NCBI RefSeq assembly: GCF_020180945.1
Contig: NZ_JAIPUL010000001.1
Span: 496,001 to 560,000, forward strand
From: Lacticaseibacillus kribbianus
GTDB taxonomy: Bacteria > Bacillota > Bacilli > Lactobacillales > Lactobacillaceae
Length of the DNA stretch: 64,000 nucleotides
Reading direction: 5' to 3'
The number at the start of each line of letters is the position of its first letter. Position 1 is the first letter of the stretch. Below are positions 3,086-63,069 of this stretch, in pieces. The notes below the pieces were generated by a model. That model ran no database searches. It was not told the DNA's origin and saw only the letters and a program-made list of their open reading frames with translations. Position numbers and translations under genes: made by a program.

Positions 3086-5758
3086 ATGGCTAAGAAAAAA
3101 GTTTTCATTGTGTCGCACAGTCACTGGGATCGCGAGTGGTACATGGGGTACGAGAAGCACCACATGCGCCTGATTAGCCTGATTGACGACCTGTTTCACC
3201 TGTTCGAAACCGACCCGAACTTCGACTCGTTCCACCTGGACGGGCAGACCATCATTTTGGACGACTACCTCAAGGTGCGCCCGGAAAAGCGCGCCGAGCT
3301 TGAGAAGTGGATTCAAAAGGGCAAGCTGCGCATTGGGCCGTTCTACATCCTGCAAGACGACTTCCTGATCAGCCCGGAGGCCAACGTCCGCAACACGCAG
3401 TACGGCCTGGCCGCCTCCCAGAAGTGGGGCCACGCCCCGGTGCCTTTGGGCTACTTCCCGGACACCTTCGGCAACATGGGTCAGACCGCGCAGATGATGA
3501 AGCTGGCCGGCCTTGACACCGTGGCGTTCGGCCGCGGCGTCACTCCAACCGGGCTGAACAACCAGGTCGGCGGGAAGGGCGACTTCGACTCCACTTACTC
3601 CGAGATGTGGTGGGAAGGCCCCGATGCCAGCAAGGTGCTGGGCATCCTGTTTGCCAATTGGTACTCCAACGGCAACGAGATCCCGGCGGACCCGGCCAAG
3701 GCAAAGGTTTACTGGGACAAGCACCTGGCCGACGCCGAGCGCTTCGCCTCGACGCCCGACCTGCTGTTCATGAACGGGGTCGACCACCAGCCGGTGCAGA
3801 TGGACCTCAGCGAGGCCATCCGCGTGGCCAACGAGCTGTACCCGGACTACGAGTTCGTGCACAGCAACTTCCCGGCCTACATCGAGGCGCTGCGCCAGGA
3901 CCTGCCAACGGACCTGTCGACGATTCACGGCGAGCTGACCTCTCAGGCCACCGACGGCTGGTACACGCTGGCCAACACGTCCAGCTCCCGCATCTATCTG
4001 AAGCAAAACAACACCAAGACCGAGCGCCTGCTCGAGGATCAGGTGGAGCCGCTGCTCGCATTGAGCGACAGCGCGACCGCCGAGAACCAGGACCGCCTGG
4101 ACTACGCCTGGCACTTCCTGCTTCAAAACCACCCGCACGACAGCATCTGCGGCTGCTCCGTCGACCCCATCCACGAGCGCATGATGACTCGCTTCCACGC
4201 CGCGCAGCAGGTCGGCGACAGCCTCAGTGCGCAGGCGCTGACCCGCTTTGCCCAGCAGCTGGACACCGCAAGCTTTGCAGACGACGCCCACCCGTTCGTG
4301 CTGTTGAACACGACCGGCGCCGCCAAGCGCGAGCCCGTGACGGTGGAAGTCGAGCTCAAGCGCGCGCTGTTCAAGGATGGCGCCCCCAAGGCCCAGTACG
4401 ACAAGCTGAGCGCCTTGGCCCAGGACCTGCCGGCCCTGACCGTGGTCGACCACGAAGGCAACGCGGTGCCTGCAATCATCCAAAACCCGCACGTCCGCTT
4501 CAACTACGAGCTGCCGGACCGCACGTTCCGCGTGCCGTTCATGGCCCTGTACGTCGACGTGCAGGTGGCGGCCGACCTGCCGGCCTTTGGCTGGCAGACC
4601 CTGGCCGTGGTGCCGGGTACCCCTGCTGCCATCGCGGCACCGGCTGCGACCAACGCGATTGACAACGGCAAGCTCCGCGTCGTTTTGGAGGCCGACAACA
4701 GCATCACGGTTGAGGACCGCCTCACCGGCCACCGCTACCAAGACGCCTTACTGATCGAGGACACCGGCGACATGGGCAACGAGTACATCTACCGCCAGTC
4801 GGCCGATAAGCTGACCTTCACGTCCAAGGACGGCAAGGTCTCTGACGTCACCACCAAGGCGACGGCCACCGGCCAGGAGCTGGACTTCACGCTGACCTTG
4901 ACCGTGCCGGACCAGGCCGCGGCGACGCTTGACTACGAACGCCAGGCGGTGATCGACATCACCAACCGCACCAGCAAGCGCGGCGATCACGACGTTGACC
5001 TGCCGCTGGCCATCACCCTGCGGCTCGATCAGGACAGCCGCCTCAGCGTGACGGTTGCAGGCCACAACACGGTCAAGGACCACCGGCTGCGCGCCGTGGT
5101 CGCCACCGGGCTGACCACGACCACGCACCAGGCGGAGTCGATCTTTGAGGTCGTCACCCGCCAAAACCAGGTCGGCCCTAACTGGCAGAACCCGACCAAC
5201 CCGCAGCACCAGCAGGCCTTCGCGACCGTGCACAACGAACAGCGCGGCGTGGTGGTCGGAAACTACGGCCTCAACGAGTACGAGGTCAGCCCGACCGGCG
5301 ACACCATCGCCGTGACGCTTCTGCGCTGCATCGGTGAGATGGGGGACTGGGGCTACTTCGAAACCCCGGCGGCCCAGTGCCTCGGCGACTTCACCGCGGC
5401 CTTCTCTTTGACCTTCACCGACGGCAGCGAGGCCGCTCAGCTTGCCGCCTACCAGGCGGCCCGCGCCGCCCAGGTGCCGGTGATCACCAAGCAGACTGGC
5501 GCCCACGCCGGCAGCAAGCCGGTCCAAGCGACCTACCTGACCGTCAGCGACCCGGCCTTTGCCGTGACCGCGACCAAGCAGGGGGCGGACGGTCTGATCG
5601 TGCGCGGTTACAACATGACCGGGGAAGCCAAGCCGCTGACCGTCGAGTACGACGGCAAGCCGGCGGCCGGGCTTTTGGACCTGGTCGACAAACCGCTTGC
5701 AGGTGACGTGACCGCCGCGCTGCGGCCGGCCGAGATTCGGACCTACCTGTTCAAGTAA
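3086..5758 (+). CDS. GH38 alpha-mannosidase (cytoplasmic, zinc-dependent)
   Basis: The protein has 890 residues. The N-terminus carries SHSHWDREW with zinc ligands His13 and Asp15. The expected nucleophile is Asp126 in GYFPDTFGN, and a further zinc ligand is His351 in HDSICG. Beta-rich GH38 C-terminal domains follow. Bacterial GH38 enzymes of this size hydrolyse alpha-1,3 (and some alpha-1,2/1,6) mannosyl bonds, releasing mannose. No export signal is visible, so substrate must be imported first. The gene sits between GH125 and GH20 in one strand-wise run and has its own GGAGGG-like ribosome site. A mannosylglycerate hydrolase role (MngB-like) is possible but less likely in this setting. Confidence 0.92.
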   Translation: MAKKKVFIVSHSHWDREWYMGYEKHHMRLISLIDDLFHLFETDPNFDSFHLDGQTIILDDYLKVRPEKRAELEKWIQKGKLRIGPFYILQDDFLISPEANVRNTQYGLAASQKWGHAPVPLGYFPDTFGNMGQTAQMMKLAGLDTVAFGRGVTPTGLNNQVGGKGDFDSTYSEMWWEGPDASKVLGILFANWYSNGNEIPADPAKAKVYWDKHLADAERFASTPDLLFMNGVDHQPVQMDLSEAIRVANELYPDYEFVHSNFPAYIEALRQDLPTDLSTIHGELTSQATDGWYTLANTSSSRIYLKQNNTKTERLLEDQVEPLLALSDSATAENQDRLDYAWHFLLQNHPHDSICGCSVDPIHERMMTRFHAAQQVGDSLSAQALTRFAQQLDTASFADDAHPFVLLNTTGAAKREPVTVEVELKRALFKDGAPKAQYDKLSALAQDLPALTVVDHEGNAVPAIIQNPHVRFNYELPDRTFRVPFMALYVDVQVAADLPAFGWQTLAVVPGTPAAIAAPAATNAIDNGKLRVVLEADNSITVEDRLTGHRYQDALLIEDTGDMGNEYIYRQSADKLTFTSKDGKVSDVTTKATATGQELDFTLTLTVPDQAAATLDYERQAVIDITNRTSKRGDHDVDLPLAITLRLDQDSRLSVTVAGHNTVKDHRLRAVVATGLTTTTHQAESIFEVVTRQNQVGPNWQNPTNPQHQQAFATVHNEQRGVVVGNYGLNEYEVSPTGDTIAVTLLRCIGEMGDWGYFETPAAQCLGDFTAAFSLTFTDGSEAAQLAAYQAARAAQVPVITKQTGAHAGSKPVQATYLTVSDPAFAVTATKQGADGLIVRGYNMTGEAKPLTVEYDGKPAAGLLDLVDKPLAGDVTAALRPAEIRTYLFK

Positions 5759-10344: not shown

Positions 10345-10412
10345 GCAAACCGTCGGAATTGTGGGTTGAAAAGGGTGGGGGCAGCGGCTTAAGCTCGAAA
10401 GGGCGGCCGGGC

Positions 10413-10564
10413 GCTAAGCCCGCGCTTTTCCACCCTCTAAACGGGTTCCCCAAGGCAACGCCGGTTCGGCCAGCTAGGACCGGCACTCGGGCCAAAGAGC
10501 GGCCCAAGCGCCAGTCCTACGCTGGCCGACCGGCTAAGCCCGCCTTGGTCCACCCTCTGAAAGG
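10413..10564 (+). repeat. Structured intergenic repeat, locus A (one full copy plus part)
   Basis: This is one of four loci carrying the same repeat family (others at 18413, 32991 and 58744). The core at 10482-10512 forms GGGCC/GGCCC around an AAAGA loop. It is enclosed by a 13-bp helix (GGCCAGC-TAGGAC paired with GTCCTA-C-GCTGGCC). The flank GCTAAGCCCGC...CCACCCTCT occurs at 10413 and again at 10533, a 120-base period. It lies between yesM and yesN, inside what is probably one operon. Confidence 0.75.
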
Positions 10565-10574
10565 AGTTATCCCC

Positions 10575-12053
10575 ATGAAACGTGTGATGGCAGTCGATGA
10601 TGAGTTCATGATTCTGCGGGGCATTCCCAAGCTCATTGACTGGGCCGCGCTGGATCTGACCATCGTGCAGACCGAGCAGAATCCGGTGGCCGCTTTGACC
10701 TATCTGCAGCACGAGCCGATCGACATTCTGCTGTCGGACATGAACATGCCGGAGATGGCCGGCCCCGAGTTCTTGGCCGCGGCCCGCCGGCTGCAGCCAA
10801 ACATGCAGATCATCGTGCTGTCGGGCTACGGCGACTTCGATTACGTCAAGGCCGGCCTCGAGCAGGGCGCGCTGAACTACCTGCGCAAGCCGATCGACCC
10901 CGACGAGCTGGTCAAAACGCTGCAAAAGGCGCTGCGGCAGCTCGCCCAGCACGACACGGCGGATCAAAACGCGCAGCTGGCCCACCAGGCGCTGACCCGC
11001 GAGCTGGTCACCGGCCGCTCGCAGGCCCCGGTCGACCCGGCCGCGGCCCACCTCGCGCTCAGCCTGCCGGACAACTGCGAGTGGCGCCTGCTGGCGATTC
11101 TCAATCCGCAGCAGCGGGCGGCGCTGCAGGCCGACCTAGTGTCGCAGCGCGAGGTTGCCGGCTTCTTTTCCGAGGGTCAAGACGTGATTGTGCTGTTCAC
11201 CGGGACCACGATGCAAGTGCGCCAGTTCCTCGATCAGCTGCCCGACAGTGTCGGGCCGACTCGCCGGCCGGTGGTGGTATCGCCGGTGATCAAAAACCAC
11301 GCGGCGATTGCCGACGTCTATCAGCGCGTACGCTGGGCGATCAACCGGCGGTACTTTTTCGCCGTCGCCAACGGACTGGTGATCCTACCGGAGCAGGAGG
11401 CGGGCCCGAGCGTGAAGCTGCCGACGGTGGACACACTCAAGGGCGAGCTGCGCGACGTGCCGCTGACCGGCCTGGCCGACTGGCTGAACGCGCGCTTCTC
11501 GCAGATGGAGCAAGAGGATGCCTCAGTCGAACTGACCCGCCAGATTGCGGTGGTCATCCTGCTGGCGATGCGCGCGCTGCACCCCAGCTACGAGCTGACC
11601 TCCGCGAGCTTCGGGCGCATCAACGGGGCGGCGACGGTCGCCGAGCTGACGGATGTGCTGCTGACAACGGCGGCGTCGATGTCGCAGACGGCGCAAAAGC
11701 GCTACTCGCGCAACGTCTCCGAGGTGCTGGGCATCATTTCCCAGCGCTTCAAGGAGCCGCTGACCCTCGGCGACATCGCCGGTGACCTGCACCTCAGCCC
11801 GGTGTATTTGGGCCAGCAGTTCAAAAAAGAGGTCGGCCAGACGGTTGCGCAGTACCTCAACGACTACCGGATCAACCAGGCGATCCAGCTGCTGGAGCGC
11901 ACCGAGATGGACGTCAACGAGATTGCGCACGCGGTCGGCTACCAGACGGCCAGCTACTTTTTCAAGACGTTCAAAAAGCAGTTGAACATGAGCCCGGGCG
12001 AGTACCGCGAGGTCGCCTTGGCCGCACCGAGCGAAAGCGGGCGACAGGCATGA
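10575..12053 (+). CDS. yesN: YesN-type response regulator with AraC DNA-binding domain
   Basis: The protein has 492 residues. A receiver domain occupies about residues 1-120, with the acidic pair Asp8/Asp9, phosphoacceptor Asp55 (LLSDMNMP) and the KP motif near residue 105. A linker of about 270 residues follows. Two AraC helix-turn-helix motifs fill the last 100 residues (NEIAHAVGYQTASYFFKTFK). It should activate glycan-uptake and hydrolase genes when phosphorylated by YesM. ATG 10575 is chosen over an upstream extension because AAGGAG precedes it and the upstream DNA is the structured repeat. The next gene overlaps the stop by 4 bases. Confidence 0.92.
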   Translation: MKRVMAVDDEFMILRGIPKLIDWAALDLTIVQTEQNPVAALTYLQHEPIDILLSDMNMPEMAGPEFLAAARRLQPNMQIIVLSGYGDFDYVKAGLEQGALNYLRKPIDPDELVKTLQKALRQLAQHDTADQNAQLAHQALTRELVTGRSQAPVDPAAAHLALSLPDNCEWRLLAILNPQQRAALQADLVSQREVAGFFSEGQDVIVLFTGTTMQVRQFLDQLPDSVGPTRRPVVVSPVIKNHAAIADVYQRVRWAINRRYFFAVANGLVILPEQEAGPSVKLPTVDTLKGELRDVPLTGLADWLNARFSQMEQEDASVELTRQIAVVILLAMRALHPSYELTSASFGRINGAATVAELTDVLLTTAASMSQTAQKRYSRNVSEVLGIISQRFKEPLTLGDIAGDLHLSPVYLGQQFKKEVGQTVAQYLNDYRINQAIQLLERTEMDVNEIAHAVGYQTASYFFKTFKKQLNMSPGEYREVALAAPSESGRQA

Positions 12054-14718: not shown

Positions 14719-14755
14719 GAATAGTGTAGTCGTGAGCCACAAAGGAGGGATGGCA

Positions 14756-15721
14756 ATGCAGACGAAACAGTCCGCGGTCGTCGGGGGTAATAACAAGGGC
14801 TTCATCGCCAAGATGAAAAAGAACAGCACGTTTTTCCTGCTGGTCGCACCAGGGACCATCTTCCTGATCATCTTCTTTTACATTCCCGTGTTGGCCAATG
14901 TCGTGGCGTTCCAGAATTTCCAGTACTCGGATGGAGGCTTCCTGTACAGCCTGTTCCACAGCCCGTGGGTCGGGTTCCAGAACTTCATCTTCTTCTTCAA
15001 GTCCGCCGACTTCTGGCTGGTACTTCGCAATACCGTCGGGTACAACCTGACGTTCCTGCTTCTGAACTTCTTCTTTGCCATTTTCTTCGGCATTGTGATG
15101 AGCCAGATGCGCAACATGCGGCTGCTTCGGGTCTACCAGACCTCGATGCTGTTCCCGTACTTCCTGTCTTGGGCGATTCTGGCCTACTTCCTCTACGCCT
15201 TCTTGAGCGCGGATAAGGGGATCATCAACCACATCATCACCGGGGCGGGCGGCACGGCCATCGACTTCTACAACACGCCGTACGTCTGGCCGTTCCTGAT
15301 CGTCTTCATGGGCGTTTGGAAGGGGATCGGCTACAACAGTATCCTGTACTTCGCGACCGCTTCCGGCATCGACCCGTCGTACTACGACGCGGCGATGATG
15401 GACGGCGCCAACAAGTGGCAGCAGATTAAAAACGTCACGCTGCCGCACATCCTGCCGATTGCGACGTTGATGCTGATCATCAACATCGGCGGCATCTTCC
15501 GGTCCGACTTCGGGCTGTTCTACCTGCTGCCGCGCGCTTCGGGCACTTTGATCAACGTGACGCAGACGTTCGATACCTACGTCTACCGCGCGTTGACCAC
15601 GACCAGCGACATCGGCATGAGCACCGCGACCGGTCTGATCCAGTCCGTGGTCGGCTCGGTCATGATCCTGGGCTCCAACGCGATTGTTCGTAAGCTGCAG
15701 CCGGATTCGGCACTGTTTTAG
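14756..15721 (+). CDS. lplB: ABC importer permease LplB-like
   Basis: The protein has 321 residues with six predicted membrane helices; the first begins near residue 25 (TFFLLVAPGTIFLIIFFYIP). The EAA loop is seen as YDAAMMDGANKWQQIKNVTLPHILP near residues 220-245, the contact site for the ATPase. LplB and LplC form the channel of a CUT1-type importer for oligosaccharides. Two ATGs are possible; the second (14756) is preferred because AAAGGAGG ends 7 bases before it. No ATP-binding subunit is encoded nearby, so a shared MsmX-type ATPase is expected. Confidence 0.9.
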   Translation: MQTKQSAVVGGNNKGFIAKMKKNSTFFLLVAPGTIFLIIFFYIPVLANVVAFQNFQYSDGGFLYSLFHSPWVGFQNFIFFFKSADFWLVLRNTVGYNLTFLLLNFFFAIFFGIVMSQMRNMRLLRVYQTSMLFPYFLSWAILAYFLYAFLSADKGIINHIITGAGGTAIDFYNTPYVWPFLIVFMGVWKGIGYNSILYFATASGIDPSYYDAAMMDGANKWQQIKNVTLPHILPIATLMLIINIGGIFRSDFGLFYLLPRASGTLINVTQTFDTYVYRALTTTSDIGMSTATGLIQSVVGSVMILGSNAIVRKLQPDSALF

Positions 15722-15732
15722 GAGGCGCGCGC

Positions 15733-16656
15733 ATGGCAAAAAAGAAAAAAGTCGTCAGCGCCGTGGACATCCGCAAGTTCAGCGCCGGCACCAACCTGTT
15801 CTTCAACATTTTTCTGGGCATCTTCGCCTTCACCTGCGTGGTGCCGTTCGTCTTCATCATCATCCTGTCGTTGACCAAGGAGTCGGACATCACCCTGTAC
15901 GGCTACCAGTTTTGGCCGAAGCACTGGACGTTGGCGTCTTACACGTACCTGACCGGTATGGGTGGCCAGGTCGGCAAGTCCTTCCTGATTTCCGTCATCG
16001 TGACGGTGGTCGGGACCATCATGAGTTCGACCTTCACGTCGACTTACGCCTACGCGATTTCGCGGCGTGACTTCGACTACAAGAAGTTCTTCACTGTCTT
16101 CGCCCTGATCTCCATGCTCTTCACCCCGGGCATGGTGCCGAACTACTTGGTTGTCACGCAGATGCTGCACCTGAAGGACAGCATCTGGGCCCTGATTCTG
16201 CCGGCATCCTTCGGGGTGTTCAACGTGTTGATCATGCGGACTTTCTTCCTGACTAACATTCCGGAATCGATCATCGAGTCCGCCCGCATCGACGGGGCGT
16301 CTGAGCTGAAGATTTTCCGCAGCATCGTGGTGCCGCTGGCGGTGCCCGGGATTGCGACCATCTCGCTGTTCTCCGCTTTGGGCTACTGGAACGACTGGTT
16401 CAACGCGATGCTGTACACGGACAGTCCGGATGTGACGCCGCTGCAGTACCTGCTGGTTAAGATCCAAAACAACATCACGATGTTGACGCAGCAGGCGGCC
16501 CAGGGCGGGTCGACCATGGCGGCCGGCACGGAGATCCCGTCTGAAGGCATGCGCTTCGCCGTCGTCGTGGTCGCCACCTTGCCAATCGCCCTGACGTACC
16601 CATTCTTCCAGAAGTACTTCGTCAAGGGCATGACCGTCGGCGGGGTCAAGGGCTAG
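15733..16656 (+). CDS. lplC: ABC importer permease LplC-like
   Basis: The protein has 307 residues with six membrane helices. The EAA loop reads ESARIDGASELKIFRSIVVP near residues 178-197. It pairs with LplB to form the importer channel. The gene starts 11 bases after lplB behind TAGGAGG, so the two are one operon. A long hairpin terminator follows, which separates it from the second lipoprotein gene. Confidence 0.92.
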   Translation: MAKKKKVVSAVDIRKFSAGTNLFFNIFLGIFAFTCVVPFVFIIILSLTKESDITLYGYQFWPKHWTLASYTYLTGMGGQVGKSFLISVIVTVVGTIMSSTFTSTYAYAISRRDFDYKKFFTVFALISMLFTPGMVPNYLVVTQMLHLKDSIWALILPASFGVFNVLIMRTFFLTNIPESIIESARIDGASELKIFRSIVVPLAVPGIATISLFSALGYWNDWFNAMLYTDSPDVTPLQYLLVKIQNNITMLTQQAAQGGSTMAAGTEIPSEGMRFAVVVVATLPIALTYPFFQKYFVKGMTVGGVKG

Positions 16657-16877: not shown

Positions 16878-18365
16878 ATGAGTAAGTGGCAAAAAGGATT
16901 AGCACTCGCAGGCACCGCTGCGGCGGCCCTCGCCCTCGTGGGTTGTGGCAAGAGCGGCAGCAACGGTGACAGCGGCAGCAGCAATGGCAAAGTGACCGTG
17001 ACGATGTACCGCCCCGGTGACGTTTTGACCAACGACAAGGCCATGATGAAGATCGTCAACAAGGAGATCCAAAAGCAGTACCCGAACGTTCAGCTGTCAA
17101 TCAAGCCCCTTTCCTGGGGCGATTACGGCCAGAAGTTCAACGTGATGCTGACTTCCGGTGATCCGTTCGACCTGGCGTTCTCCTCAGGCAGCTACGTGGA
17201 CAACGCCCACAAAGGCGCGTTCACAGACCTCACGCCACTGCTGAAGAAGTACGCCAAGAAGGCCTACGATGGCATCAACAAGGCCTACTGGAAAGGGGTC
17301 ACCGTCAACGGCAAGATCTACGGCTTCCCGACCAACGCGAACGTTTTCTCCCAGGAAACCCTGACCTTCAACGACACCTTCCTGAAGAAGTACAACATCA
17401 GTGTTGACGACGTGAAGACCCTTCAAGACGCCACCCCGGCGCTTGCGGCCTTCCACAAGGCCAACCCTGGCGTCGCGGCGTTTGCCATCGGCAAGGGCTA
17501 CCACGCCCCGGCCTTTGACGCCACTCACAGCTACGAGTACCCACTGAGCAACGCCTACCCGTTCGTGATCGACCAGACGGGCAAGACCACGAAGGTTGAA
17601 AACCCGTACGACACCAAGACGATGCAAAAGAACCTCAAGACCCTGCACAGCTGGTACCAGGCGGGCTACATCCCACAGGATGCCGCAACCTCCAGCACCG
17701 CTTACAACCTGCCTGAGGACACTTGGTTCACCCGCGTCGAGACGAACGGTCCCTTCGACTACGGCTCAACCGCTTTGAACAACGCCCGCGGCAACGGCAA
17801 GACCGTCACCGTCAAGCAGATTTCCAAGCCTTACAAGGCGACGTCCGACGCCCAGATGGCGATGTACGTGGTCTCCAAGTCTTCCAAGCACAAGAAGGAA
17901 GCCGTTGAGGTCCTGAACGCCATCAACACCAACAAGAAGATCCTGAACACCATGGTTTGGGGCATCGAAGGCAAGCAGTGGGAATTCACCGACAAGGCTA
18001 AGGGCAAGGTCAAGACGCTCGATGGCTACAAGGAAAAGACCTACTACGGCGCTTGGATGACCGGGAACAACAAGCTGCTTTACACCAAGGACGAAGTGAC
18101 CGACGCGATGATCAAGGATCGCGACGACAAGATCGCCAACGCCAAGCAGTCTGCCGGCCTGGGCTTTGTTCCGGACACCACGTCTGTGAAGACCGAAATG
18201 ACCAACATCGCCAACGTGATGAGCAAGTACTCCGACATCCTGAACACCGGGACCGCGGATCCGATGCCGACCATCAAGAAGATGAACGCCGAGCTGAAGA
18301 GCGCTGGCTGGGACAAGGTTCAACAGCTGATCCAAAAGCAGTACAACGAATTTCTGAAGAAGTAA
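16878..18365 (+). CDS. Sugar-binding lipoprotein of Lpl-type ABC importer (copy 2)
   Basis: The protein has 495 residues with a LALVGC lipobox (Cys23). It is nearly identical over its length to copy 1 at 13078. Differences cluster in the Ser/Gly linker after Cys23, around residues 172-190 and in the last 60 residues. The two copies flank lplBC, which suggests duplication of the binding protein with the permease pair left single. They may bind overlapping but not identical glycans. TAGGAGG precedes ATG by about 9 bases. A terminator follows at 18380. Confidence 0.92.
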   Translation: MSKWQKGLALAGTAAAALALVGCGKSGSNGDSGSSNGKVTVTMYRPGDVLTNDKAMMKIVNKEIQKQYPNVQLSIKPLSWGDYGQKFNVMLTSGDPFDLAFSSGSYVDNAHKGAFTDLTPLLKKYAKKAYDGINKAYWKGVTVNGKIYGFPTNANVFSQETLTFNDTFLKKYNISVDDVKTLQDATPALAAFHKANPGVAAFAIGKGYHAPAFDATHSYEYPLSNAYPFVIDQTGKTTKVENPYDTKTMQKNLKTLHSWYQAGYIPQDAATSSTAYNLPEDTWFTRVETNGPFDYGSTALNNARGNGKTVTVKQISKPYKATSDAQMAMYVVSKSSKHKKEAVEVLNAINTNKKILNTMVWGIEGKQWEFTDKAKGKVKTLDGYKEKTYYGAWMTGNNKLLYTKDEVTDAMIKDRDDKIANAKQSAGLGFVPDTTSVKTEMTNIANVMSKYSDILNTGTADPMPTIKKMNAELKSAGWDKVQQLIQKQYNEFLKK

Positions 18366-18379
18366 TCCGCCGTCTGCAC

Positions 18380-18409
18380 ACGGTCGAGTCGAAAGGCTCG
18401 GCCGTTTTT
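18380..18409 (+). terminator. Terminator after lipoprotein copy 2
   Basis: Stem ACGGTCGAG/CTCGGCCGT (18380-18388 with 18397-18405, one G-T pair) followed by TTTTG. It ends the glycan island. Confidence 0.82.
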
Positions 18410-18412
18410 GTG

Positions 18413-18661
18413 CCCAGGGCTTTGAAAGGCGCACCTAGCGGGACGGATTGCCTAGCCAAGGCGCTTGGGCCGCACTTTGGCCCGAGTGCCTTGGCGTAGC
18501 AAGCCGCTCCCGCGTTGCCTTTCAAAGCCCGACGATGCCCAGGGCGGAGGCCGGCGCACTTAGCGGGACGGGTAGCCTAGCCAAGGCACTTGGGCTGTTC
18601 TTTGGCCCGAGTGCCTTGGCGTAGCAAGCCGCTTGCGCGTTGCCTTTCAAAGCCCGCCGAC
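18413..18661 (-). repeat. Structured intergenic repeat, locus B (two tandem copies)
   Basis: Two copies lie head to tail with a period of exactly 125 bases (CCTAGCCAAGG at 18451 and 18576). Read on the minus strand each has the family core CTCGGGCCAAAG and the frame GGCTTGCTACGCC...GGCTAGGC...CCCGTCCCGCTAAG/GGTGCGCC. The enclosing helix is GCCAAGGC/GCCTTGGC. The inner helix is GGGCC/GGCCC in one copy and GGGC/GCCC in the other. No ORF is conserved between the copies. Confidence 0.8.
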
Positions 18662-31732: not shown

Positions 31733-32935
31733 ATGGCAGACTTTCAACAATGGGCGCCGCGCGCGCCGATGGGGTGGAACAGCTGGGATTGCTTCGGTGC
31801 CTCCGTGACCGAGGCCGAGGTGCGCGCCAACGCCGACTACATGGCCGCCCACCTGCGCCAGTTCGGCTACACCTACGTGGTCGTGGACATCCAGTGGTCG
31901 CAGCCGAACCCGGACGGCTGGGCCTACCGCCCGTTCACCGACCTTTTGATGGACGACCAGTGCCGGCTGATCCCGGCGCCGAACCGTTTTCCCTCGGCAA
32001 AAGGCGACGGCGGCTTCACGGCGCTTGCGGATTACGTGCACGGGCTGGGGCTGAAGTTCGGCATCCACATGATGCGCGGCATTCCGCGCCAGGCGGTGCA
32101 CCGCGACCTGACCTTCGGGGACGGGATCCGGGCGCGCGACGTGGCGGCCAACAACATCTGCCGCTGGAACCCCGACATGTACGGGCTTGACATGGCAAAG
32201 CCCGGCGCCCAGGCCTACTACGACAGCGTGGCGGCACTGTACGCCAGCTGGGGCGTGGACTTCATCAAGTGCGACGACATCGCCGACTCCACGCTGTACG
32301 GGATGATGAAGTCGGAGATCGTCGCGCTACGCCGGGCGATTGACAAAACGGGCCGTGAGATGGTGCTCAGCCTATCGCCGGGCCCGGCCGACATCAACGA
32401 GGGCGCCTTTTTGCAGCAAAACGCCAACATGTGGCGGCTGACCGACGACTTCTGGGACACCTGGCCGCAGCTTGAGGGGATGTTCCCGGTGGCCGCCAAG
32501 TGGGCGCCGTTCGTGCGGCAGGGCAGCTGGCCGGATCCGGACATGCTGCCGCTCGGGGCGATTCTTCAGCGCCAGGGCGGGCCGCGCTCGCGCTTCACGA
32601 CCGCCGAGGCCCAGACGATGCTGACGCTGTGGTCGCTGTTGCAGGCGCCGATGTTTCTCGGCGGCGACCTGACGGCCAGTGGCCCCGAGGAGGCGCTTTA
32701 CACCAACCCGAAGCTGATGGCGATGCGCGAGGACCTGATTGAGGCCTGGCAGGTTGACGCGGACGAGAAGCGGGTGATCTGGCACGGCCGCGGTGCAAAG
32801 AACGATTACGTCGCGGTGTTCAACCTGACCGAGCAACCTGTGCCGCTGCCAAAGCGGGCGGCGACCGCCGAGCCACTGTGGACGGCAGACGCCATCGCGC
32901 CGCACGGGGTTGCCGCCTGGGCGACGGCGCGGTAG
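31733..32935 (+). CDS. GH27-family glycosidase (alpha-galactosidase or beta-L-arabinopyranosidase)
   Basis: The protein has 400 residues and no signal peptide. The start of the barrel is PMGWNSWDCFG. The expected nucleophile Asp181 is in DFIKCDDIAD. The usual IDDCW motif is replaced by VVVDIQW (Asp52-Ile53), so one of the two Asp residues that contact galactose hydroxyls in alpha-galactosidases is missing. GH27 also contains beta-L-arabinopyranosidases. Being divergent from araAB suggests release of arabinose, though this is an inference. ATG 31733 is chosen for AAAGGGA upstream; an in-frame start at 31685 has no ribosome site. The gap 31402-31732 holds the divergent promoters. Confidence 0.82.
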   Translation: MADFQQWAPRAPMGWNSWDCFGASVTEAEVRANADYMAAHLRQFGYTYVVVDIQWSQPNPDGWAYRPFTDLLMDDQCRLIPAPNRFPSAKGDGGFTALADYVHGLGLKFGIHMMRGIPRQAVHRDLTFGDGIRARDVAANNICRWNPDMYGLDMAKPGAQAYYDSVAALYASWGVDFIKCDDIADSTLYGMMKSEIVALRRAIDKTGREMVLSLSPGPADINEGAFLQQNANMWRLTDDFWDTWPQLEGMFPVAAKWAPFVRQGSWPDPDMLPLGAILQRQGGPRSRFTTAEAQTMLTLWSLLQAPMFLGGDLTASGPEEALYTNPKLMAMREDLIEAWQVDADEKRVIWHGRGAKNDYVAVFNLTEQPVPLPKRAATAEPLWTADAIAPHGVAAWATAR

Positions 32936-32990
32936 CCAGCGCCACCCTGCGCTAGCCGGTGCCCTGAGACCGCGCTTCTCCGCCTTGGAT

Positions 32991-33238
32991 ATCGTCGGGC
33001 TGCGCGGGGCAACGCGGGCGCGGCTTGCTACGCCGGGATGCTCGGGCCAAAGTGCGGCCCAATCCCCCCGGCTAGGCAACCCGTCCCGCTAAGTGCGCCC
33101 CGCTCCGCCCTGGTCATCGTCGGGCTGCGCGGGGCAACGCGGGCGCGGCTTGCTACGCCGGGGTGCTCGAGCCAAAGTGCGGCTCAATCATCCCGGCTAG
33201 GCAACCCGTCCCGCTAAGTGCGCCTCGCTCCGCCTTGG
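32991..33238 (+). repeat. Structured intergenic repeat, locus C (two tandem copies)
   Basis: Two copies follow with a period of exactly 125 bases (GGCTAGGCAACCCG recurs at 33070 and 33195). The core is CTCGGGCCAAAGTGCGGCCC in copy 1 and CTCGAGCCAAAGTGCGGCTC in copy 2: a G to A change on one arm is matched by C to T on the other, so the helix is preserved. An outer helix GCCGGG/CCCGGC and a TTGC/GCAA helix enclose it. A decayed partial copy may precede it at 32945-32990. Confidence 0.85.
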
Positions 33239-33247
33239 AATACAAAT

Positions 33248-33284
33248 AGCGCCAACTTCCAGAATCTTGGAAGTTGGCGCTTTT
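33248..33284. terminator. Terminator hairpin between GH27 and phnE
   Basis: A 14-bp stem AGCGCCAACTTCCA/TGGAAGTTGGCGCT with TTTT on the plus strand and a T-rich stretch on the minus strand. It can serve the phn operon, which ends at 33307. Confidence 0.85.
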
Positions 33285-33306
33285 CTGTTGTCTTGGAAGA
33301 CTTAAG

Positions 33307-34110
33307 TCAGACCAGGCGCTTGCGCAGCGCACCGGACAGCCAGTCGACGGCCGTGACCATGATGATGATGCCGATCAGGATGATGCCGACCCGCGGCCAG
33401 GAACGCGTCTGAATCGCGAAGATCAGAGGCGTCCCGACCCCGCCGGCACCGACCATGCCCAGGATCGAGGCAGAACGGATCGCGAGCTCGAAGCGGTACA
33501 GGGTGTTGGAGACGAATTCGGGGAGCAGCTGCGGCAGGGAAGCCAGGATGGTGACGTCCAGCCGGGTGCCGCCGGCCGCGGTGACGGACTCGCCGGCGCC
33601 GTTGTCCATGTTTTCGATCGCCTCGGAGAACAGCTTGGCGAGCATGCCGACACTGTGGAAGCCGACCGCCAGGACACCGGCGAAGGAGCCGGGGCCGACC
33701 GCCTTGATGAACATCAGGGCCATGACGATTTCTGGGAACGTGCGGATCGCGGTGAGCACGAACTTACCGGAGCGCGAGGTGAGCCAGAACTTGTTTTTGG
33801 TGTGCGCCGCCCAGAAGGCGAAGGGCAGGCTGATGATCGCACTGATGAAGGTCCCGAGGAACGCGATGCCCAGGGTTTGGAGCAGGGCGTTGGTCAGGTC
33901 CTCGCCGTCGCCGGTCCAGACGTAGCTCCAGTCGGGGTGAATCAGGCCGTCGAGCATGGACTTGGCCACCATCACCGCGTTTTGCTTGAGCTCGAAGCTC
34001 GGCATGCCGGTGAAGGACCAGACAATCAGGACGATGACGGCCGCCCAGCCGAGCCAAAACGGCCAGCGGTGCTGCGCCGGCTGTGCCGGCAGTTTTTTCA
34101 TTTCGGTCAT
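33307..34110 (-). CDS. phnE: Phosphonate-type ABC transporter permease (second PhnE)
   Basis: The protein has 267 residues with about six membrane helices. The ATPase-contact loop has AGGTRLDVTILASLPQLLPE near residues 178-197 and the family ending VDWLSGALRKRL. PhnE proteins form the channel for phosphonates, phosphite or phosphate esters. The start overlaps the stop of the first phnE by 4 bases (ATGA). The two unequal permeases probably form a heterodimer. No C-P lyase or phosphonatase gene is seen in the window. Confidence 0.9.
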   Translation of the reverse strand: MTEMKKLPAQPAQHRWPFWLGWAAVIVLIVWSFTGMPSFELKQNAVMVAKSMLDGLIHPDWSYVWTGDGEDLTNALLQTLGIAFLGTFISAIISLPFAFWAAHTKNKFWLTSRSGKFVLTAIRTFPEIVMALMFIKAVGPGSFAGVLAVGFHSVGMLAKLFSEAIENMDNGAGESVTAAGGTRLDVTILASLPQLLPEFVSNTLYRFELAIRSASILGMVGAGGVGTPLIFAIQTRSWPRVGIILIGIIIMVTAVDWLSGALRKRLV

Positions 34111-58705: not shown

Positions 58706-58743
58706 GGGGCGGGGACTATGCTGGTCCCCTGAGTGCGGGTCAC

Positions 58744-58904
58744 GCTAGGCGGCCCGCTAAGAGCGCCGCGCTCCGCCCTGGATCGTCGAGCTCCGCGCGT
58801 CGACGCGGGCGCACCTAGCTTGCACCGGCACTTGGGCCTAAGTGCGGGCCCAACTGTCGACGCAGCGCTAGGCGGCCCGCTAAGAGCGCCGCGCTCCGCC
58901 CTGT
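58744..58904 (+). repeat. Structured intergenic repeat, locus D (partial plus degenerate full copy)
   Basis: GCTAGGCGGCCCGCTAAGAG occurs at 58744 and again at 58867, a period of 123. The core GGCACTTGGGCCTAAGTGCGG is a variant of the family core with helix TTGGGCC/GGGCCCAA. The second enclosing helix is not well preserved, so this locus looks decayed. Orientation is the same as locus C. Confidence 0.65.
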
Positions 58905-58910
58905 GTACAC

Positions 58911-58965
58911 AAAGACGCGCAGTCGTTTCTCGGCCATTTTGGTCGGGGAACGACTGCGCGTCTTT
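58911..58965. terminator. Long perfect hairpin (17-bp stem)
   Basis: AAAGACGCGCAGTCGTT (58911-58927) pairs with AACGACTGCGCGTCTTT (58949-58965). The ends of the stem supply CTTT on both strands, so it may terminate in either direction. Confidence 0.6.
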
Positions 58966-59057
58966 GCGTGGCTTGCGTTTCGCGGGGCAGCAGCTGAAAA
59001 TAAAACCTTTCTGCAATGTCTCGGGCTTCGCCAACGGCGGAAGCTTGTCACAGTGTA

Positions 59058-62995: not shown

Positions 62996-63069
62996 TGCGA
63001 CAGGGGGGACTCGAACCCTCTACCTATGGTTTAGGAAACCATTGCTCTATCCAGGTGAGCTACTATCGC
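62996..63069 (-). tRNA. tRNA-Arg (anticodon CCT)
   Basis: The 74-nt cloverleaf reads: acceptor G1CGATAG with CTGTCGC, D arm GCTC/GAGC with GG in the loop, anticodon arm ATGGT-TTCCTAA-ACCAT, 5-base variable loop, T arm GAGGG-TTCGAGT-CCCCC. The anticodon CCT reads AGG codons. The T stem has an A-C mismatch at its second pair. CCA is not encoded. Confidence 0.95.

Follow-up and report, generated by a model that had tools for sequence, protein, structure and literature searches.

A family of 123-nucleotide hairpin repeats in Lacticaseibacillus kribbianus and other Lactobacillales

In the genome of Lacticaseibacillus kribbianus (host genome G000; 2.79 Mb, 11 contigs) a folded repeat occurs between genes, at some sites singly and at others in head-to-tail arrays. 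A first-pass annotation of one stretch of this genome (C1:496001-560000; 64,000 nucleotides, called the window from here on) had found one sequence family at four loci, A to D, and had offered two options for it, either a mobile palindromic element or a structured RNA in multiple copies.

The family in the window and in the host genome

All four loci were located in the window. Loci B (18411-18535 and 18536-18660) and C (32951-33075 and 33076-33200) contain, as had been described, two head-to-tail copies each with a start-to-start distance of 125, and loci A and D a fragment plus a full copy with spacings of 120 and 123, respectively. The number of copies had been given as seven; a covariance model built from 28 units (R1) finds six full units, to which the fragments at A and D are to be added. 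Two subfamilies differ in their ends, which are CCAGGG...GACGAT in subfamily I and AGGG...CCCGTTTAG in subfamily II; the strand that has CCAGGG or AGGG at the left is referred to as canonical.

Locus A has a full unit of subfamily II (10437-10558, minus strand, 116.6 bits with R1), at whose junction CTCCTTTCAG is followed by AGGG. The unit is reversed and lies just upstream of the Shine-Dalgarno (SD) sequence of a response-regulator/AraC-type gene (10575-12053, plus strand), and at its right end comes a fragment of the next unit, approximately the first 25 nt (10412-10436, minus strand; limits drawn by eye, repeat spacing 120). At locus B an intrinsic terminator, recognized by eye as a hairpin followed by TTTTTG (18380-18413, plus strand; T-run class, see below), belongs to the gene of a solute-binding protein (16878-18365); array B begins immediately after the terminator with two units of subfamily I on the plus strand (18414-18536, 127 bits with R1, and 18539-18661, 106.2 bits). 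Locus C consists of two subfamily I units on the minus strand, the first in canonical orientation at 33116-33238 (120.5 bits with R1) and the second at 32991-33113 (122.8 bits), after which, in the canonical direction, the fragment CCAAGGCGGAGAAGCGCGG is seen by eye at approximately 32970-32988. A few bases left of array C is a terminator-like inverted repeat with 17-nt arms (33245-33284, minus strand), behind a permease gene (33307-34110, minus strand; Pfam BPD_transp_1). Locus D has a full unit of subfamily I (58782-58904, minus strand, 102.6 bits with R1), a right-end fragment comprising the first 43-44 model positions (58738-58781, minus strand; nhmmer) and, directly left of the array, a terminator-like inverted repeat whose 30-nt arms are 87% complementary (58907-58969, minus strand). 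In the automatic classification of sites (see below) arrays C and D fell under 'elsewhere' (C as 'other', because the T-run of the inverted repeat at 33245-33284 is interrupted); by eye each of them adjoins a terminator-like inverted repeat.

Further copies were found in the genome and in relatives, both by BLAST and by scans with covariance models. In the host a 248-bp query gave 68 BLAST matches and R1 gave at least 150 matches, a floor, as scoring covered 150 of the 2600 candidates and every one of these was a match. Contig C4, of which 400 kb were taken without selection, has 116 units or fragments in 54 arrays, and all 864 kb examined, in which the C5 and C1 stretches were picked for containing matches, have 237 units or fragments in 106 arrays; if C4 is typical, we infer that the genome holds several hundred units. 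The units of an array abut with no genes between them, their spacings are 118-127 in 115 of 130 cases, and one strand is kept throughout in 66 of the 67 multi-unit arrays. Mean identity between units of the host is 0.69 (4000 sampled pairs). Within the 864 kb the identity between units of different loci is at most 95.3%, if one case of overlapping stretches of the same DNA is set aside; no very recent move is thus seen, so movement is slow or unsampled. One pair of arrays shares 281 nt at 91.8% identity, namely two units plus approximately 30 nt, which suggests that several units with a ragged end can travel together.

The scores of an eight-unit array in the host (C5b:24717-25693, corresponding to C5:144717-145693) recur every three units, which suggests that a block of three units was duplicated. 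Positions 14742-16656 of the window (1915 bp) have a 100% identical copy at C6:49640-51554, a perfect duplication within the same genome.

Each unit of approximately 123 nt is one long imperfect hairpin, and both the family and its fold are real. The helix exchanges noticed at the outset, GGGCC/GGCCC to GAGCC/GGCTC and GCCGGG to GCCAAGGC, are present in the sequence, and covariation held, against shuffled controls and controls with one side slid, in 149 distinct units of the host and again in 49 units from 19 genomes. The first set, the distinct units among the best 150 of 177 host matches in an alignment fitted to the structure of the model, has standard pairs in 95.8% of pair cells versus 77.6% in shuffles and 31.8-42.2% with one side slid; 32 of 41 pairs have two-sided changes, which occupy 1034 cells versus 285 (sd 14.5) in shuffles and 92-168 in slid controls. 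The second set was aligned by sequence alone and counted on the RNAalifold structure of that alignment: 92.2% of its cells are paired, 435 are two-sided versus 111 (sd 10) in shuffles and 76-143 in slid controls, and 31 of 33 pairs have two-sided changes, a pair count equalled in 6 of 500 shuffles. The earlier conclusion that the folded form is selected is supported by this covariation with one qualification, that some of the variation between copies is whole-unit replacement (see below); because whole units get replaced, the two-sided changes cannot all be counted as independent compensatory mutations.

Common to most units are CCAGGGCGGAGC, GCACTTAG, TA-containing internal loops, a GCACTTTG-like apical loop and GTTGCC...GAGCCCGACGAT, and bulges and mismatches hold their positions across units. 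The loop AAAGTGC (plus strand), which had been called constant, is mostly kept; its constancy did not stand, with GCTCTTT, GCACCTT and other forms being found on the canonical strand.

Strand, ends and sites of the units

The canonical strand is the better-folding one. When folds forbid GU pairs, the isolated helix mismatches in 202 full units are GT/TG in 354 cases versus AC/CA in 30, and the canonical strand is more stable in 195 of the 202 units (mean 12.2 kcal/mol). The same holds for 49 of 49 units in set A4, six of which are from the host, and for 26 of 31 units in set A5, with a GT to AC count of just 19 to 5. Some columns have GT almost throughout; when the four with the most GT are left out, the count is still 211 GT to 54 AC. 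GT is favoured over AC in DNA as in RNA, so that the mismatch test identifies a strand but does not tell RNA from DNA. The bias persists (67 to 5) in subfamily II units whose left neighbour is divergent and would have the other strand in its mRNA, so it seems to be a property of the element and not of the mRNA around it. Among the youngest one-sided differences (unit pairs with at most six) GU-type to AC-type is 13:7, and the ratio climbs with divergence over 26:10 and 87:19 to 177:37, as expected if spreading lineages are filtered more than each resident copy. This asymmetry tells which strand folds, and was stated by neither of the two options offered for the family.

The sites were analyzed for the 97 arrays that have at least one near-full unit (subfamily I 54, subfamily II 38, neither 5), fragment-only arrays being left out; genes were predicted by a hexamer scorer of our own, not by a standard gene finder. 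The arrays start after a T-run in 32 cases, at a stop codon in 30, reversed and just upstream of an SD in 12 and elsewhere in 23, versus 361, 86, 78 and 4475, respectively, for 5000 random intergenic points. The first three classes thus comprise 74 of 97 arrays versus 525 of 5000 random points, a comparison in which the definitions for the points are slightly narrower (distance only, no overlap) than those for the arrays (stop class, 0-8 nt after the stop or at most 30 nt overlap with a predicted gene; SD class, by distance or motif). An overlap of over 20 bp with a predicted gene is seen in only 3 of the 97 arrays.

Arrays of subfamily I follow a T-run in 31 of 54 cases and are co-oriented with the left gene in 46 of 54; their junction stops are TAA 10, TAG 2 and TGA 2. 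Those of subfamily II are TAG 10 and TGA 3, whereas the predicted genes end with TGA 300, TAA 221 and TAG 208 times. The left flank of subfamily II arrays has A at -2 in 32 of 38 and G at -1 in 31 of 38 cases, and as the unit itself ends with TTTAG, its end resembles its target. The subfamily II sites that were read have a TTT(A)G-like right end regardless of the left flank. Nor was a target-site duplication, the mark of a MITE of a DDE transposon, demonstrated.

At the left the arrays listed have an exact end; at the right the end is ragged. Of 98 terminal units 62 continue for 9-44 nt (one for 63 nt) into a further unit, and a piece of a preceding unit is found at 4 of 98 first units; no such continuation arose in the shuffled right-side control (0 of 98). 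The right-sided asymmetry together with the limit of approximately 44 nt argues against random loss from both sides. Some solitary pieces that have no left part also exist.

Other small repeats were observed next to the arrays. Directly left of the host sites C4:45749, C4:133609, C4:142191, C4:284093 and C5b:44609 is a small repeat with CTTTTAGGT and a GAGCC-like end, whose exact core (CTTTTAGGTT, then G or C, then GAGCC) occurs 5 times in 864 kb; it is possibly a partner element. Yet another intergenic repeat, represented by 15 exact occurrences of CTTCCGGCTCCGG and 8 of TAACAGCAATTTCACGC in 864 kb, lies right of arrays C4:72981-73175 and C4:115902-116020, within DNA that is missing from the sister genome G010.

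Turnover of the units and how it may be explained

By both flanks 36 of the 106 host arrays can be placed in G010, where 15 of these sites have a unit and 21 are without a detected unit (two of the 21 share one interval, two of the intervals are 1350 and 3738 bp long, and the site corresponding to C4:283978 has a unit-like fragment). At the single-unit sites C4:107407-107528 and C4:311033-311146 of the host there are short spacers in G010; the unit at the latter site is seen by eye to separate a TATACT-like box from the gene's SD. Twelve sites have full units in both genomes, at 11 of them on the same strand. For the 30 host units at shared sites the best match in G010 is on the same site in 10 cases (0.78-0.96), tied in 2 and elsewhere in 18, with approximately 1.5 of 30 expected on-site by chance if the 57 units of G010 are equally likely. 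Inheritance in place and replacement therefore both occur, and many units are inherited in place between the species.

Replacement is seen most directly on plasmids. At a site between the genes for IIB and IIC of a mannose phosphotransferase system (man-PTS), a comparison of the L. paracasei plasmids CP064307 and CP064301 gives 8 differences over 1176 positions of flank and 29 over the 126 positions of the unit (p 3e-24), with a complete fold in each of the two units; for a Pediococcus inopinatus plasmid versus CP064307 the differences are 24 of 1176 in the flanks and 2 of 126 in the unit. With near-identical flanks and a divergent unit, the whole unit has been replaced with the site unchanged: units are replaced as blocks at a fixed site. 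At the same man-PTS site one L. plantarum plasmid, out of four records of this kind, retains only approximately the last 14 nt of the unit. At a second site the aligned plasmids differ: in one, from L. paracasei, a remnant accompanies two full units, another carries a single unit, and in the remaining two nothing but the remnant is left. That such sites were never occupied was rejected, the unit ends being kept in the alignment; what happened there is therefore loss and not gain. Deletion remnants of this kind mark former units and could serve to count lost ones. Remnants with one or both unit ends were observed in L. plantarum CP018325 and in L. paracasei CP035565 and CP039708.

Both options of the first-pass annotation find support in these results, the best reading being a mobile repeat and its main rival a structured RNA that acts in place. 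The best-supported account, which we consider somewhat probable, is that of a non-autonomous mobile, exchangeable repeat recognized as a folded single strand. The unit would fold as a single strand, RNA or single-stranded DNA, of canonical polarity; a trans-acting factor would recognize the folded single-stranded unit; its exact left end would be placed at gene-end sites, i.e. after the T-run of a terminator, after a TAA or TAG stop or upstream of an SD; and units would then be multiplied or replaced at the site as whole units. We infer that the factor is a dedicated one acting on the single strand, and that the placement reflects target choice and not only what selection leaves.

If the units were instead structured RNAs, stabilizing mRNA 3' ends, damping read-through or setting translation at the gene ends where they lie, copies would spread slowly and each would be held in place by selection. 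This agrees with the position of the arrays at transcript and gene boundaries, with the canonical strand being the sense strand of the left gene in 46 of 54 subfamily I arrays, with the deep covariation and with the 10 of 30 units inherited at their own site between species; similar repeats of Bacillus cereus are often located in UTRs, and for one of the families a correlation with the decay of mRNA is described (PMC3446304). The reading is nevertheless unlikely in our judgement, as the strand bias is no weaker where the left neighbour of a subfamily II unit is divergent (67 to 5), a T-run precedes 31 of the 54 arrays of subfamily I, the presence, number and sequence of units vary between species and between plasmids, and the ratio of GU to AC rises from 13:7 among the youngest differences to 177:37, as if selection acted on lineages more than on copies. 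We consider rather improbable a DNA-level process without a dedicated factor, with homologous recombination and slippage moving the units and template switching at the hairpins keeping the pairing without selection. Whole-unit replacement and deletion remnants that keep their ends could arise by recombination, and the repeating scores of the array at C5b:24717-25693 suggest block duplication; arm-to-arm correction, however, would erase mismatches, whereas the bulges and mismatches hold their positions, and it is strand-neutral, whereas GT was observed 354 times versus AC 30 times, and the first arrival at new sites and the exact left ends are left unexplained. The strand bias and the fixed mismatches together rule out that quasipalindrome correction alone produces the pairing.

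Known moving enzymes account less well for the mobile repeat. Arrays of integron-type attC sites without genes, a very improbable reading, would resemble the family in folding as a long single-strand hairpin with bulged bases, in the uniform direction of the units and in whole-unit replacement. The integron integrase (TIGR02249), however, is over the cut-off in 0 of 14 carrier genomes (sub-threshold matches, probably Xer-like recombinases, occur in the 14 carriers and in all 14 control genomes), there are no gene cassettes between the units and, by eye, the units do not have RYYYAAC/GTTRRRY, the end motifs of attC. Hardly credible is an element of the REP/REPIN type moved by a Y1 (RAYT/IS200) transposase: although the folded single strand, the TTTAG end resembling an NAG target and the tandem arrays would suit transposition of single-stranded DNA, and Y1_Tnp (PF01797) is present in 13 of 30 genomes of the genus, among them the copy-rich G007, G012, G020 and G021, it has 0 matches in the copy-rich G000, G001, G006, G010 and G013, for which genomes the reading is contradicted. 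The unit, moreover, is approximately 123 nt long, not 20-40 nt, and has no GTAG or CGTC tag at its ends. A retrotransposed (target-primed) element was rejected, the reverse transcriptase RVT_1 being absent from G000, G001 and G010, all of them copy-rich; RVT_1 is present in 11 of 30 genomes of the genus, including the copy-rich G006, G013, G014 and G017. As other copy-rich congeners have Y1_Tnp or RVT_1, a helper enzyme may have been lost from some lineages. Between 23 pairs of near arrays (less than 2.6 kb apart) only what look by eye like ordinary host genes, and no autonomous element, were seen. The family is without the tested defining features of REP/RAYT or attC.

Known families and distribution

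No Rfam 15 family reaches its gathering cut-off at the repeat, the only match in the window being a tRNA, and at E<=1 positions 32900-33300 gave two irrelevant sub-threshold matches. The tRNA-Arg (CCT) at 62996-63069 (minus strand) is the sole RNA gene detected in the window. The statement that no family of this form has been described agrees with what was found, none being named in Rfam or in the literature searched, which most subscription papers lay outside.

In kind the family appears to stand near ERIC, bcr, EFAR, BOX and REP, the first four of them judged by description. EFAR of Enterococcus faecalis are stem-loop repeats that are said to insert into stem-loop sequences. ERIC, the enterobacterial imperfect palindrome of 127 bp, is similar in size, in forming one long stem-loop, in its intergenic position and in having no gene of its own; it is from another bacterial order, and we know of no head-to-tail arrays of ERIC or of exact starts at stops or terminators. 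RU-1 we take to be ERIC. ERIC is described as a stem-loop (PMC2267715) and RU-1 as a unit of 127 bp (PMC2759123). EFAR and Efa-1 are likewise stem-loop repeats of Lactobacillales, Efa-1 differing in that it is a double hairpin of 163 bp (PMC2267715). BOX, RUP and SPRITE of Streptococcus pneumoniae are folded interspersed repeats, also of Lactobacillales, and BOX has tandem middle modules (PMC3049150); BOX is thus modular (A-Bn-C), whereas in the Lacticaseibacillus family the whole hairpin is the tandem unit. The repeats bcr1-bcr18 of the Bacillus cereus group are similarly interspersed and have conserved folds, bcr1-3 being MITE-like (PMC3446304); they belong to other taxa, and a covariance model of the family (R2, see below) gave 0 matches outside Lactobacillales in a phylum-wide sample. 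REP/REPIN with RAYT shares with the family the folded single strand, the extragenic position and the arrays; REP/REPIN are 20-40 bp long with a GTAG or CGTC tag, and a Y1 transposase goes with the GTAG class (PMC3733652), unlike the units of approximately 123 nt, which end with CCAGG/AGGG and GACGAT/TTTAG.

R1 matches 22 of 29 congeners, the host genome apart, and 0 of 50 genomes of other genera, the congeners in which it finds no copy including G009, G011, G019 and G022; in a scan of 295 Lactobacillales two genomes of another family match. R2, which was built from 49 diverse units, matches at E<=1e-4 in 36 of 395 Lactobacillales genomes (the host included) from 16 of 80 genera and five families, among them the congeners G008 and G028, which R1 missed; in the phylum-wide sample of 398 genomes the host alone matches (0 of 397 others). 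Filtering was strict in these scans and the number of candidates scored per genome small (44, 12, 9 and 8), so that absences are soft and counts are floors. By eye the distant copies have at the left a GAG(T/C)GC-like box, then TTAG, paired arms and at the right a GTT-containing end; in G178, G352 and G385 they are tandem with a period of 124-125.

The protein flanking the repeat in the window has its nearest named relatives in L. manihotivorans (77%) and L. thailandensis (72%). Two 21-kb loci of relatives of this protein in Lacticaseibacillus match neither R1 nor R2, and R2 on 76 of 80 such loci gave one weak match, in Latilactobacillus fragifolii (35.4 bits). The DNA pattern of the family gave 0 matches in named genome contigs.

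That an order-wide class of gene-less mobile elements exists, in which an enzyme would join the left end of a folded RNA or DNA of fixed polarity to the boundaries of transcripts and reading frames, is a generalization that we regard as doubtful. If true, the gene ends of lactic acid bacteria would serve for docking, hairpin units being swapped there in the manner of cassettes. The structured repeat is present in well over a hundred copies in a single genome and also on plasmids of the food bacteria L. paracasei, L. rhamnosus and Pediococcus. It provides numerous natural replicates of one hairpin per genome, with clear polarity and exact left junctions, and block replacement between plasmids that are nearly identical. 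Two questions become testable with it: what moves palindromic repeats that have no transposase, and do repeats at stops, terminators and ribosome-binding sites alter gene output?

A search of plasmids with the window copy and with copy L228 gave no match, and a phage origin was rejected, the window, L186 and L228 copies having no match in phages. Copy L186 is matched by 15 plasmid records, namely from Pediococcus acidilactici (8), P. inopinatus (1), L. paracasei (4), L. rhamnosus (1) and, over 57% of the query, Latilactobacillus curvatus (1). On the L. rhamnosus plasmid CP125316 (L201) a unit at 4001-4120 lies approximately 460 bp from the gene of an IS30 transposase.
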